The notes below the pieces were generated by a model that was not told the origin of the DNA, ran no database searches, and saw only the letters and a program-made list of their open reading frames with translations. From positions 1-35,260 of IMG/VR virus record IMGVR_UViG_3300017971_000549: a DNA stretch of 35,260 bases; one strand, written 5' to 3'. This DNA comes from a virus. This document shows, one piece after another, positions 544 through 26,297 of this stretch. The stretch's first letter is position 1; every line of letters starts with the position of its first letter. The position numbers and the translations under genes are program-made.

Positions 544-564
544 GCAAACGTATCGCGGTACTTC
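535..564 (+). promoter_or_regulatory. Sigma70-like promoter for the leader RNA and replication operon
   Basis: TTGACC (535-540), an 18-nt spacer and TACTTC (559-564), preceded by CGG, resemble the other promoters in this window. Transcription would begin near 571, just before the structured RNA whose first pairing strand is 581-587, and would run into the initiator gene at 737. The -10 box is weaker than at the other sites. Confidence 0.45.
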
Positions 565-570
565 TGGAAG

Positions 571-736
571 GCTTCGGGAACGTAAACCCCGACTGAAAGA
601 CGGGCGGAGGCTCCAGAAGCGAAGGAGGCCCGGGAGTAGGATCTTCGGAAGGTCTTCCCCCCGGACCAAACGATGCCTGTTTACGGCTCTCGGTCCTCCT
701 TCGCCGCTGGAGTAGTGCGCTCCGCGTGAGGGATCT
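571..736 (+). ncRNA. Candidate structured leader RNA with pseudoknot
   Basis: This non-coding stretch folds by eye into a long interrupted stem. GCGGAG (604-609) pairs with CTCCGC (720-725), CTCCAG (611-616) with CTGGAG (707-712), GCGAAGGAGG (619-628) with CCTCCTTCGC (695-704), and 630-637 with 686-693 (two G-U pairs). That gives about 30 base pairs closing one domain. Inside, GATCTT (640-645) can pair with AAGGTC (649-654). CGTAAAC (581-587), outside the stem, is perfectly complementary to GTTTACG (679-685) in the apical loop, making a pseudoknot. It sits directly after a predicted promoter and ends about 11 nt before the initiator ATG. There is no U-tract, so it looks like a 5' leader or processed RNA and not a terminator. 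I do not recognise an RNA family. Confidence 0.5.
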
Positions 737-2092
737 ATGCAAACACTGAGAGGCGAGTACTTCATCAAGCGTGACTTCGGCTTCTACGACACGGGGATAT
801 TGGCCGTGATGGGAGCTACGATCTTCAACCTCTACGAGGTGATTCGACGCTTCACCTGGCGGAGCACCGAAAGGGGGGATCGAGCAGTAAGGAGGCTTGT
901 GTCTCAAGGCTTCGTGATCTCTCGCACCTCCCAAGCGGTACTGGGCAAGCACCTAGGCATCAGCCGCGTGCAGACGAACAAGCTTATCCAGCAGATGAAG
1001 GAGCTAGGATGGCTTGAGGTGTTGGAGCTTAACAAGGGCAGGACCTTCGCCTACAAGCTGGGGGAGCGTGTGCAGGACTCCAGCGGCCGAGGGCACGAGA
1101 TCTTCTACGCCGACGCCTGGATGAGCGAGGTGTTCGGCCTACTCGACGCAGAAGCAAACTGTCGTTTCGGAGAGCAGAAACACCCCGAGGACGAGGACAG
1201 CACAGAAGTCGACTCAGTCGAGGAGTACAACAGAGCCCTTCAATCAATTCGCAGACTTACAATCGAAGAGCGCATCGAATTTCTCAAAGACCGACTGACT
1301 GCGAGTCAGTTTACAGGGGGTGTTAACTCCACTTTACAGGGGGGTGTTAACTCCACTTTACAGGGGGGTGTTAACTCCAGTTTACCGGGGAATAGGGAGA
1401 ATTCTCTGAAGGAAGAGAATGATATAGAAGTCCCGCGGGAGGAGGGGGATTTTAGCCCCGACCAAGAATCAGATCAGCCTGCTTCGGGGCAAGAGGACCC
1501 ACACACCTCGGCCACTGAACAAACGCATAGTCCTCTAAGTCAATTCGACTTGGACGCCGCGGTAGCTCGTGCGGGGGTGGCGGCGAAGCGCCGCGCTGAG
1601 GAGCAGCTGACGAAGAGCAAGCGGAAGAAGCAGAAGGCGGCCAACCTGAAGGGGCGGCCCAAGACGCTCTCGGAGCGAGCGCAGTTGGGGAAGCTGCAGG
1701 ACGTCTGGCTGAGCGGTTGTCAGGAGCGGTGGCCGGACCTGGATTGGGGCAAGTGGGGGAAGACCGAGCGCGGCCAGTGCCGGCAGCTGCTCGAGGCGTA
1801 CAAGTTTGAGACCGTCGAGATGATGCTGCGCTACGTCATCGAGCGGTGGGACGAGATTCAGGAGGAGATGTTCGGGAAGGAGGGCGACCACCCGAGCTTG
1901 GGTATGGTGCTGAAGCTGCGGCAGCGGTTCGCGCCGAAGGCTCAGACCTACGCCAAGGTGTCGGCGGTCTATCGGGAGTATCGGGCGTGGCGCAAGGCCA
2001 ACCCTCGGAAGATGAACGCGCCGGCAGATCTACAAAAGCGCTACGACGCGGCCCGTCCCGAGCTGCGAGCGCTTGGACTCATAAAGCACTGA
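737..2092 (+). CDS. Replication initiator, lambda O-like, with winged-helix N-terminus
   Basis: The 451-residue protein has an N-terminal wHTH-like region at about residues 10-115 (STERGDRAVRRL, AVLGKHLGISRVQTNKLIQQMKELGWLEV), typical of phage and plasmid initiators. Residues about 190-280 are a low-complexity linker in which the segment GGVNSTLQ is tandemly repeated because iteron DNA lies under it. The C-terminal third is a helical domain (LQDVWLSGCQERWPDLDWGKWGK and onwards). It is followed at 4 nt by an AAA+ helicase loader and then a DnaB-like helicase, the same order of functions as lambda O, P and DnaB. Likely role, inferred: it binds the internal origin and recruits the loader-helicase complex. 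The start has a weak GAGGG site and follows the structured leader RNA. Confidence 0.7.
   Translation: MQTLRGEYFIKRDFGFYDTGILAVMGATIFNLYEVIRRFTWRSTERGDRAVRRLVSQGFVISRTSQAVLGKHLGISRVQTNKLIQQMKELGWLEVLELNKGRTFAYKLGERVQDSSGRGHEIFYADAWMSEVFGLLDAEANCRFGEQKHPEDEDSTEVDSVEEYNRALQSIRRLTIEERIEFLKDRLTASQFTGGVNSTLQGGVNSTLQGGVNSSLPGNRENSLKEENDIEVPREEGDFSPDQESDQPASGQEDPHTSATEQTHSPLSQFDLDAAVARAGVAAKRRAEEQLTKSKRKKQKAANLKGRPKTLSERAQLGKLQDVWLSGCQERWPDLDWGKWGKTERGQCRQLLEAYKFETVEMMLRYVIERWDEIQEEMFGKEGDHPSLGMVLKLRQRFAPKAQTYAKVSAVYREYRAWRKANPRKMNAPADLQKRYDAARPELRALGLIKH
1310..1390 (+). repeat. Tandem iterons inside the initiator gene (putative origin)
   Basis: Three direct repeats of 23-24 bp sit head to tail at 1310-1332, 1333-1356 and 1357-1380. 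A partial fourth (TTTACCGGGG) lies at 1381-1390. Each unit starts TTTACAGG, carries a G-run and ends GTGTTAACTCCA, with a near-palindromic GTTAAC core. The first unit is one G shorter, so reading frame phase shifts relative to the repeat while the ORF stays open. A more AT-rich stretch with GAGAATTCTC follows at 1391-1433. Repeated initiator sites next to an AT-rich segment inside the initiator gene are the hallmark of lambdoid origins. Confidence 0.65.
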
Positions 2093-22692: not shown

Positions 22693-23520
22693 ATGTCAGA
22701 GACGAGGACGACGACGAAGAAGATGGCTGTGTCCTTGAAGGACGGCCGTCTTTACCGCGAGGTAACCGTGACGCTCGAGCAGAGCTTCCACCCGAACACG
22801 AAAAAGCTTATCTCCTCCAAGGAGATCGGCCGTGAAGAGGGGCGCCTCATGCGCAAGGCTAAGCCTGGCGAGAAGAACGCGGTTCAGCTAATGGACGACA
22901 ACTACGAGGTGGTGAACCTCGTAGAGGTGCCCGACAAGGCACCCGAGACGAAAACCGAGACGACGGAAACGACGGAGAAGGACGACATGGCAAAGAAGGC
23001 CGAGAAGCAGAAGGCAACCAAGGCGCCAGCGGCGAAGAAAGCCGCGACCAAGAAGGCGTCCAAGAAGCCCGCAACCAAGAAGAAGGCAGCGAAGAAGGCT
23101 GCTCCCAAGAAGAAAGCCGCGCCGAAGAAGAAGGCGCCAGCAAAGAAGGCGACCAAGAAGGCAGCTCCGAAGAAGAAGGCGACCAAGAAGGCAGCTCCGA
23201 AGAAGAAGGCAGCTCCGGCGAAGAAGGCTGCGAGCGGTCCGAAGCAGGCGCCTACCAGTGGTCAGTCCGGACCTCCTGTCGACTTGGCGGAGAAGAAGCT
23301 GAACGCCAAGGAGGAGAGGGTGCTGGGCGCGCTGTCCAACGGCGCGGGTGAGCAGACGCTCTCTGACCTCGCAGGCGTGTTCAAGGGTAAGCCGAAGGAT
23401 CAGGCCAACAGCTGGGTGCGGAACAGCCTTCGCCGGCTGGTCCGCGGCGCTCTGGTCGAGCAAGTATCGCGCGGCACGTACAAGGCCACGAAGGCGGGCA
23501 AGGCGCGCGCGGCCAAGTGA
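22693..23520 (+). CDS. Histone H1-like Lys/Ala-rich DNA-binding protein with terminal winged helix
   Basis: The 275-residue protein has three parts. Residues 1-80 are a folded domain (MAVSLKDGRLYREVTVTLEQ). About 95-185 is a low-complexity tail of repeated KKAAPKKKA/KKAT units, like histone H1 and bacterial HctB/AlgP-type proteins. About 195-275 looks like a winged helix (NAKEERVLGALSNGAGEQTLSDLA, VRNSLRRLVRGALVEQV). It should bind DNA non-specifically and could condense or organise phage or host DNA. GGAG lies upstream of the ATG, and the stop overlaps the GTG of the polymerase. Confidence 0.8.
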   Translation: MSETRTTTKKMAVSLKDGRLYREVTVTLEQSFHPNTKKLISSKEIGREEGRLMRKAKPGEKNAVQLMDDNYEVVNLVEVPDKAPETKTETTETTEKDDMAKKAEKQKATKAPAAKKAATKKASKKPATKKKAAKKAAPKKKAAPKKKAPAKKATKKAAPKKKATKKAAPKKKAAPAKKAASGPKQAPTSGQSGPPVDLAEKKLNAKEERVLGALSNGAGEQTLSDLAGVFKGKPKDQANSWVRNSLRRLVRGALVEQVSRGTYKATKAGKARAAK

Positions 23521-26297
23521 TCAGCTACGAGCTAGTCCTAGAGCCGGAGCGGCTCGGTCACATCGCCAACGAGATCGACCGCAACCCGGTTCTAGGGCTA
23601 GACATCGAGGCGACGTCTCTGTCGCCTCACCACGGTGACATTCGCCTTGTCCAGCTCAACACTGGGCAGGGCATCTACGTCATTGATCTGTTCGCGACGA
23701 AGACGCTCGGCCCCGTGCTCGACGCCATCCGCAGCGAGAGCACTATCAAGGTCATACAGCACGGGAAGTTTGAACAGTCGTGGTTTTTGCAGAAGTACGA
23801 CTGCGAGCTGTGGCCGTTGTTCGACACGTTTCGCTCGTCGGCGATGATCCACAACGGCAAGAACCTCAGCCACGGCCTGTACGATCTCTACAGCCGAGAG
23901 CTGAAGGTTCCTCCGGGCGTAGACGACATGTCCCATTCAGATTGGGGCGGCGAACTGAACCCCACGCAGCTGGAGTACGCGGCGGAGGACGTCACCTATC
24001 TTCTCAAGCTTCGCGAGTCGTTGAAGCCTAAGCTGGCGAAGGCCGGACTCAACAAGATCGCCCTGTTGGAGTTCGGCGCCATCATCGGCGAGGCGCGCAT
24101 CGAGACGAATGGCTTTGCGCTCGATAGCGAGCGCTGGTTGAAGGTGGCTGAGAAGAACAAGGCGCGTACGGAAGAGCTGCGCGTCCAGTTGGATCAGATG
24201 CTACCGCACCCGAAAGGGTTGCTCTGCCTTCCCGGCATCGATGCCGGGTTCAACCTCAACAGCCCGCAGCAGGTGCTCGAGAGCTTTCAGCGGCTGCTGG
24301 GTAAGAAGACCCCGCTCACAAACACGCGGTCCGACACGTTCGCGATGATCGCGACGAAGCACAAGGCCATTCCGGTCTTCATGGAGTATCGGACGGCGAG
24401 TAAGCGGGTCAACGCCTTCGGTCCGAAGTACCTCGAGCATCTCGATCCAGTAACCGGTCGCATCCACACAAGCTTCTGGCCACTGACCGGCGCAGGCCGG
24501 TACAGTTCAGGCGATCCAAACCTGCAGCAAATTCCTCGGGAGTTCGATTACCGTGACTGCTTCCGCCCGGGACCGGGGCGAATAATCGTTGTGTGTGACT
24601 ACGGGCAGATCGAGCTTCGGATAGCTGCGGAGATCACCCAGGACCCGACGCTGAAGGGCATTTATCTGAAGGGCGAAGACGCGCACAGGCGAACGGCTTC
24701 TCTTGTTTCGGGGAAGGCTTACGATGAGGTTACGAAGGGCCAACGGCAGGCGGCCAAGCCCGTCAACTTCGGGCTCATCTACGGGCTCGGGGCTGACTCT
24801 CTGGTCGTCTATTCGAAGGCCAACTACAACGTGACCATTTCGCTCAATGACGCGAAGCGCTTCATCAAGAAGTACTTCGAGGGCTACCCGCGAGTCAGGG
24901 CCTGGCAGGACCGAGTGCTGCGGGACGCCAAACGAGCCCCTTTCGCAAAGACTATTTGGGGGCGGCGGCGCTTTCTTGATCCTGAGAAGAAGCGCAACGA
25001 GTTCTATAACTGCCTGGACTTCGAGACAGAAGCGCTGACTCGAAGGGGTTGGGTCAGGGGTCCGGATCTGACGATGGACGATGAGATTCTTACGAAGAAT
25101 CCAGCTTCCGGTGTGTTGGAGTGGCAGGCGCCCAGCGACCTAAGAGTGTTCGCGCCAGAGGATCGGGAGCTGGTGGAGTTCAAGTCGAGATCCTTCCATG
25201 CTGTCTCGACGGACGACCACAGATGGTGGGTGTACAGCAAGGGGGCTAAGAGGGACGTGGAGCGACGCACCTCGACGATCTCTCGTCACGGGGACGACAG
25301 GATCCATAGGACGGGGAGGTACGTTGGGCCAGAGAGCGGACCTTTTTCAGACGACTTTGTCGAACTGGCTGGCTGGTGGCTAACTGATGGAGGGATCCAA
25401 AAGACTCGGCGAGTCTACGACCGTCCAGGCAAGAGCGGCCCGAAGCCCAGCGGGGTGTCGCTCAAGCTGTACCAGAGCGAGACCGCGAATGCGCACAAGG
25501 CTGCCAGGATAGAGTCGCTGTTGGGGAGGATGGGTATTGAATTCAGCAAGCACCCGAACGAGGAGTCGGGTGTGGCTATGTGGTACTTCCGCCATCCAGT
25601 CAACGAGGTACTAGTCGAGCTGTGCCCCCAGCGGTTGCTGACAATGGACTTACTCAACCACCTTCCGTCGCGCCAGTGTCACTTGCTGCTTCGGACGATG
25701 ATTGATGGGGATGGGTGGCGCAGCGGAAAGACTGGGTTCGTTTGCCGAAAGAGAGCCGGAGCCGAGGCTTTTCAGATCTTGTGTACTCTTTGTGGAGCTG
25801 CTGCTTCGATCGTCGAGAGGGATATGCGCAAATACCGCCCGCGGTCAGGCAAGCTCAAAAACGTTCCGAAAGGAAAGAAGCACTGGCAGGTAACAGTACT
25901 GAGACGAGACAAGGTACAAGTGCTGAAGCGCCATGTGACGAGGCTACGGGGACGCTTCGGCATTTGGTGTCCGATCGTGCCTAACACGTTCTTCGTGGCT
26001 CGGCGCAGCGGTCACGTTTTTGTCACGGGCAACACGCCAGTGCAAGGTACGGGGGCGGACGGCCTGAAGCGCGCTCTGCGCAACGTCTACTATCGGCTGA
26101 AGAAGTACGGCAAGCGTGCGCAGATGGTCCACATGGTCCACGATGAGATCGTGGTGGAGTGTGATGATGATCCCGAGCTGGTCGCGGAGATAAAGCCGGA
26201 GATCGAACAGGGCATGATAGAGGGCATCCAGCCGATGCTCCGCACGGTGCCTGTTACCGCGGACGCCGACGTGGGACCTTCGTGGGCGGCACACTGA
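23517..26297 (+). CDS. polA: Family A DNA polymerase interrupted by an intein
   Basis: The 926-codon frame encodes a 585-residue polymerase after splicing. An N-terminal 3'-5' exonuclease domain has DIE (D29, E31) and YLLKL-type motifs. Polymerase motif A is DYGQIELR from D361, motif B is RQAAKPVNFGLIYG from R410, and motif C is HDEIVVE from H875, all typical of PolA. There is no 5'-3' exonuclease. Residues 499-839 (25011-26033) are an intein inserted between NEFYN and TPVQGTGADG, a conserved spot in the polymerase active-site region, so the enzyme cannot work until spliced. The GTG start overlaps the preceding stop. Confidence 0.92.
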   Translation: MISYELVLEPERLGHIANEIDRNPVLGLDIEATSLSPHHGDIRLVQLNTGQGIYVIDLFATKTLGPVLDAIRSESTIKVIQHGKFEQSWFLQKYDCELWPLFDTFRSSAMIHNGKNLSHGLYDLYSRELKVPPGVDDMSHSDWGGELNPTQLEYAAEDVTYLLKLRESLKPKLAKAGLNKIALLEFGAIIGEARIETNGFALDSERWLKVAEKNKARTEELRVQLDQMLPHPKGLLCLPGIDAGFNLNSPQQVLESFQRLLGKKTPLTNTRSDTFAMIATKHKAIPVFMEYRTASKRVNAFGPKYLEHLDPVTGRIHTSFWPLTGAGRYSSGDPNLQQIPREFDYRDCFRPGPGRIIVVCDYGQIELRIAAEITQDPTLKGIYLKGEDAHRRTASLVSGKAYDEVTKGQRQAAKPVNFGLIYGLGADSLVVYSKANYNVTISLNDAKRFIKKYFEGYPRVRAWQDRVLRDAKRAPFAKTIWGRRRFLDPEKKRNEFYNCLDFETEALTRRGWVRGPDLTMDDEILTKNPASGVLEWQAPSDLRVFAPEDRELVEFKSRSFHAVSTDDHRWWVYSKGAKRDVERRTSTISRHGDDRIHRTGRYVGPESGPFSDDFVELAGWWLTDGGIQKTRRVYDRPGKSGPKPSGVSLKLYQSETANAHKAARIESLLGRMGIEFSKHPNEESGVAMWYFRHPVNEVLVELCPQRLLTMDLLNHLPSRQCHLLLRTMIDGDGWRSGKTGFVCRKRAGAEAFQILCTLCGAAASIVERDMRKYRPRSGKLKNVPKGKKHWQVTVLRRDKVQVLKRHVTRLRGRFGIWCPIVPNTFFVARRSGHVFVTGNTPVQGTGADGLKRALRNVYYRLKKYGKRAQMVHMVHDEIVVECDDDPELVAEIKPEIEQGMIEGIQPMLRTVPVTADADVGPSWAAH
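25011..26033 (+). mobile_element. Intein with LAGLIDADG homing endonuclease in the polymerase
   Basis: This 341-residue element begins with C499 (CLDFETEALTRRGW, block A). Block B is VSTDDHRWWV, with the T-x-x-H signature. Two LAGLIDADG-type motifs follow: LAGWWLTDGG (617-626) and LLRTMIDGDG (724-733), both with the catalytic aspartate. The end is VARRSGHVFVTGN with N839 and T840 as the +1 nucleophile. The residue before the terminal Asn is Gly where most inteins have His, which can slow or alter Asn cyclisation. Both endonuclease aspartates are present, so the element may still be mobile. Confidence 0.9.

Follow-up and report, generated by a model that had tools for sequence, protein, structure and literature searches.

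The window analysed here is the whole of virus record IMGVR_UViG_3300017971_000549 (35,260 bases; one strand, positions 1 to 35,260), and its main genes all run in one direction. The replication initiator gene, rep, occupies positions 737-2092 of the plus strand and encodes a protein of 451 aa, with a start that agrees with the N-terminal end of the initiator in a related contig, L002. Behind it lie genes for a DnaC-like loader, a DnaB-like helicase, and a primase. No convincing gene is present over the ~240 bases between the end of a small gene near 499 and the initiator ATG at 737, and this region holds a structured element at 574-725. Upstream of the element, 484-543 may encode a basic peptide of 19 residues (MCKLLKSKRRETKGVGSLT) preceded by a ribosome site; no counterpart was seen in the relatives.

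The element, composed of a 5′ hairpin (H1), a long helix (P2) with a 6-bp basal extension (P2a), and a 7-bp pseudoknot, reads on the plus strand. H1 (574-592) consists of 5 bp and a 9-nt loop, TCGGG-AACGTAAAC-CCCGA, with the loop carrying the pseudoknot 5′ strand CGTAAAC (581-587). A linker (593-603) connects H1 to the 5′ strand of P2a (GCGGAG, 604-609), which continues into the 5′ strand of P2 (610-637). The apical domain (638-678) comprises P4 (638-640/676-678), an inner hairpin, and a C-run loop (657-662). The pseudoknot 3′ strand GTTTACG (679-685) adjoins the P2 3′ strand (686-713, the partner of 610-637) with zero spare bases, and the fold of the window closes with the P2a 3′ strand CTCCGC (720-725). 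GAGGG at 728-732, judged from the sequence to be the likely rep ribosome site, falls outside this fold.

All four long-range pairings listed in the initial annotation (604-609/720-725, 611-616/707-712, 619-628/695-704, and 630-637/686-693; 30 pairs) are there, as is its 7-bp match between 581-587 and 679-685, with seven perfect pairs. The pairing of CGTAAAC with GTTTACG stands, but CGTAAAC is the loop of its own hairpin, H1, which had gone unnoticed, and not a free 5′ strand. The assignment of 679-685 as the pseudoknot partner also holds in a refined form: the segment directly abuts the P2 3′ strand, and the apical domain holds a further hairpin.

Retrieval of related viral contigs via the neighbouring DnaB-like helicase, followed for one lineage (L015) by folding of the regions in front of rep and an architecture search, revealed the same architecture and spacing in three further lineages of uncultured phages: L012, L013/L014, and L015. 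L012 shares two short stretches exactly with the element, at the correct spacing, and L013/L014 adopts the same fold with little sequence in common. In all four lineages, the element sits directly upstream of the initiator gene in the same direction, 11-100 nt from the start codon, with one copy per record among the records searched. H1 is found in four of four lineages (consensus NCNGG/CCNGN), 14-19 nt ahead of P2 proper, which is 28-29 positions long. The distance from H1 to the P2 apex is 41-47 nt and that from the apex to the pseudoknot 35-46 nt. Pseudoknot and P2 meet with no base to spare in every lineage, and since P4 also abuts in the window, L012, and L013, the P2/P4/pseudoknot junction there has no unpaired bases. 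P4 and the C-run are both seen in these three lineages, the C-run being absent from L015. P2a has a counterpart in L013 (GAGGTC/GACCTC); none is evident when the L012 sequence is read. By lineage, the pseudoknot strands are CGTAAAC/GTTTACG, CTAAGCC/GGCTTAG, TCGATTC/GAATCGA, and GAGCGCGT/ACGCGCTC, forming 7 bp, or 8 in L015. In three lineages, the central part of P2, CGAAGRAG/CTCCTTCG, is strongly conserved, more than pairing alone would demand.

Three related contigs (L002, L005, and L204) lack the element; it is thus optional, and production of Rep does not depend on it. No fitting site occurs in nine annotated phage regions that surround related DnaB/DnaC genes. In L011, a long stem-loop followed by six T lies just upstream of rep (2645-2735); this terminator-like structure does not match the pseudoknot architecture and was rejected as a candidate.

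Among inverted repeats of the 35-kb window whose arms lie no more than 200 nt apart, this stem is the longest. The minimum free energy of 571-736 is -76.4 kcal/mol (z = -2.6), a value at least equalled by one of 200 shuffles, and within one sequence the 7-bp match counts for little, a lone 7-nt complement being not rare. Comparison across lineages is far more telling: when P2 was fixed and the H1 region shuffled, a hairpin with a matching loop arose in 10-17 of 20,000 trials in each of the four lineages separately. In the core alignment of three lineages, two-sided changes occur at 14 pairs, compared with 5.6 in shuffles; none of 500 shuffles reached that count, and a one-base shift of the partner abolishes the signal. 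With L015 joined in a manual register, P2 is paired in 103 of 112 cells with two-sided changes at 20 of its 28 pairs, and the pseudoknot is paired in 28 of 28 cells with two-sided changes at all seven pairs; these covariation counts derive from four sequences with the phylogeny not modelled. G-U pairs number 11 on the rep-sense strand versus six on the other. Uncompensated pair breaks in relatives had been named at the outset as evidence against the element; the reverse is found, namely extensive compensation. Since the shape is kept in four distantly related lineages while the letters change, the fold is real and selected, and we hold the structure, pseudoknot included, with very high confidence. 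The original description of the element, as a non-coding leader with a pseudoknot preceding the initiator gene, is supported.

A geometry search over 2.35 Mb, both strands, gave scores of at least 50 only at the element sites of the four lineages, with a best score of 42.1 elsewhere and 33.9 in 3 Mb of shuffled viral sequence. A covariance model (R1) was built from three lineages with L015 left out; its strong scores for the window, L012, and L013 are not independent evidence because the model was built from these, and L015 reached 22.6 bits on the sense strand when filters were switched off. A covariance-model search of 969 bacterial genomes from three phyla returned one match, which was rejected as a plain palindrome without H1 or pseudoknot; for want of a genome that could serve as positive control, this null carries little weight. 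An extended inverted repeat by itself scores 45-48 bits, so the pseudoknot is the discriminating feature. Rescoring genome-contig pattern matches with the covariance model, for the first part of the matches listed, gave nothing credible; the architecture search included all genome loci among the matches listed. Motif scans of viral contigs recovered the known relatives and nothing else, and DNA similarity searches of phage and plasmid records gave no credible match. Rfam 15 yields no match in the window at the gathering threshold, which supports the earlier remark that no riboswitch, ribozyme, or phage ncRNA is known with this arrangement, and relaxed scans of the window, L012, and L013 list only miRNA and snoRNA models far below threshold. 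No report of the element was found in the part of the literature covered. The element represents a structured RNA family absent from Rfam, in which shape and not letters is kept in front of the initiator of four uncultured phage lineages.

A -35-like box, TTGACC, is located at 535-540 of the plus strand, its single occurrence on that strand of the window. It precedes H1 by 39 nt in the window, 39 nt in L012, and 38 nt in L013, and in the latter two, though not in the window, it overlaps the stop codon that ends the small gene upstream; L015 carries TTGACA-17-TAGTTG 86 nt before H1. In the window, L012, and L013, weak -10 boxes follow TTGACC after a 17-nt spacer; that of the window, GTACTT (17-nt spacer) or TACTTC (18), is assigned by position only (558-564, plus strand). 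The constant placing of TTGACC, 38-39 nt ahead of H1 in three lineages, suggests that H1 is probably where the RNA begins, with a predicted start near 570-571 in the window. Because a sigma-70 scan called no promoter in the window, we infer this start; the earlier placement of the element just after a predicted promoter is supported by the conserved box. None of the four lineages has a U-run terminator between the element and rep. A long C-rich, G-poor stretch resembling a Rho-loading site separates the two in L015 (2490-2585).

Translation of the region itself was also considered. Short frames in the window, L012, and L013 end near rep without a ribosome site, and no conserved leader peptide was found. 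A coding explanation for the 3′ half (frame 673-729 in the window, 1122-1193 in L012) was rejected because non-synonymous changes fall exactly at the covarying pairs and the conserved stretch is identical at third positions too.

Confidence in the function of the element is moderate at best. We tentatively favour a cis-acting 5′ leader that regulates initiator synthesis via the pseudoknot, at a probability of roughly 0.45. The leader of rep mRNA would be ~155 nt long, probably starting 3-4 nt before H1 at its own promoter, and would read into rep with no terminator in between. The leader folds into a 5′-terminal H1 and P2, a 28-bp rod capped by an apical hairpin, and the pseudoknot ties the H1 loop to the rod's top. 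Whether the pseudoknot is formed or is held open, be it by the ribosome, by a protein of phage or host, or by an RNA that competes for pairing, may then set rep translation, and the genes behind rep would be tuned likewise; the action on rep as a translational switch is our inference. Covariation of P2 and the pseudoknot, the fixed geometry, the near-unique occurrence, the constant site upstream of rep in the same direction, the -35-like box, and the G-U bias to the rep-sense strand all argue for such a leader. Control of initiator synthesis, as suggested initially from the sequence, would fit the position of the element in four lineages. Against it, the ribosome site (728-732 in the window) lies outside the drawn fold at a distance that varies among lineages, the predicted accessibility of the start region follows no common pattern, L002, L005, and L204 manage without the element, and neither a conserved leader peptide nor an antisense promoter was found. 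Pairing of the C-run loop with the rep ribosome site was rejected, amounting by eye to ~4 bp and not being common to the lineages.

RNA-level control of an initiator is classic in plasmids and little described in phages. In ColIb-P9 IncI-alpha repZ, IncB, and IncL/M, the loop of stem-loop I, near the 5′ end, pairs with a distant downstream segment. Plasmid rep genes are switched by a leader pseudoknot whose formation controls translation, according to PMC10724649 and its references, and the likeness extends to an initiator mRNA leader in which a 5′ hairpin loop pairs with a distant segment. This pairing is present here and covaries in four lineages. In the plasmid systems, the distal strand lies beside the rep ribosome site; here, the P2 3′ strand intervenes between 679-685 and 728-732, and the partner sits at the top of a long persistent stem, tens of bases from the ribosome site. 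The plasmid leaders also encode a peptide whose translation opens the stem and is coupled to rep, whereas the changes observed here follow pairing, not coding. The element further differs in belonging to phages and having no plasmid sequence match. By analogy, it would work like the IncI/IncB/IncL plasmid rep leaders in principle alone, and it is not a member of that group. Copy control via an antisense RNA, which the initial annotation had raised, has no positive evidence: the opposite strand of the leader contains no TTGAC-like box, although host promoter rules may differ.

The strongest rival is processive antitermination of the HK022 put type, in which the nascent RNA would bind RNA polymerase and permit read-through of the long one-way replication operon, because this accounts both for where the element lies, near +1, and for its independence of the Rep domain. 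We consider it unlikely. The predicted 5′ end at the element recalls putL, a cis-acting phage RNA positioned early in a long operon that likewise follows closely on its promoter (PMC9378689); the main genes of the window are all oriented one way, and the RNA is kept despite exchange of the Rep N-terminal domain. However, put is ~70 nt long with two stem-loops in a V (PMC9378689) and binds RNA polymerase, whereas the element here, at ~150 nt, is built from a 28-bp rod plus a loop pseudoknot, and antitermination has no requirement for the tie to rep seen in all four lineages. Equally doubtful is a new class of phage regulatory RNA, defined by the 28-bp rod and the tied-back 5′ hairpin, that would act on RNA polymerase or the ribosome by an undescribed mechanism; factor-independent antitermination with a fold unrelated to put may be an example. 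If the element does bind RNA polymerase or the ribosome, the fold would be new for that task. The element is defined, small, and testable.

The rod is long, near-perfect double-stranded RNA just upstream of a gene, so RNase III might cut it, or the fold might shield the 5′ end, setting the life of rep mRNA; simple cleavage would not call for a pseudoknot, yet this one is retained and fully covaries, and we regard this reading as quite unlikely. Release by processing of a separate trans-acting RNA (a decoy for a host RNA or protein would be one case), in which the pseudoknot forms within one molecule or between two, is improbable as a whole. The promoter-like box of the element and the conservation in P2 beyond pairing need suit such an RNA, and covariation cannot separate intramolecular from intermolecular pairing; the absence of a terminator, the constant junction to rep, and the single copy per record speak against it. 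A phage RNA with loop-loop pairing is familiar in the packaging RNA (pRNA) of phi29, but the present element lies at replication, not packaging, and has no Rfam match. The packaging role floated in the initial annotation is unsupported, as the element is located at the replication block. That the site acts as DNA, as a cruciform, an origin, or a protein site, is highly improbable: a long inverted repeat close to a replication gene with iterons would be compatible with it, but duplex DNA does not explain a pseudoknot covarying between a hairpin loop and a second site, the sense strand has more G-U than A-C cells, and the iterons are ~600 bp off.

Those iterons, a 24-bp direct repeat in 3.4 copies inside rep (1310-1390), probably belong to a lambda-O-type origin, and 23-24-bp iterons of differing sequence are found mid-gene in the window, L012, L013, and L002, relatives having unrelated 23-bp repeats where the window has its own. 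GTTTAC is common to the pseudoknot and the window iterons; a connection was rejected, since neither L012 nor L013 shows such a match. In the initiator, the N-terminal DNA-binding domain varies by lineage while the C-terminal part is common (window 737-2092, L012 1196-2470, L015 2589-4331), and retention of the RNA while this end is exchanged speaks against that end as its partner. The Rep proteins of L012 and L015 match "replication initiation" O-like families (HTH_36/O-like N-terminal domain); those of the window, L013, and L002 have no match to these families and show only weak matches, to a different winged helix.

Further along the window, a Family A DNA polymerase (23517-26297) contains a ~340-residue insert that starts with CLDFETEALTRRGW and ends with FVTGN/TPVQGTG. 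It looks like an intein in which Gly replaces the usual penultimate His, and it has no Pfam intein match. The DnaB-like helicases of L012 (3138-5714) and L013 (3216-5825) carry an intein at the P-loop (GKC...HNTW), which the window helicase lacks.
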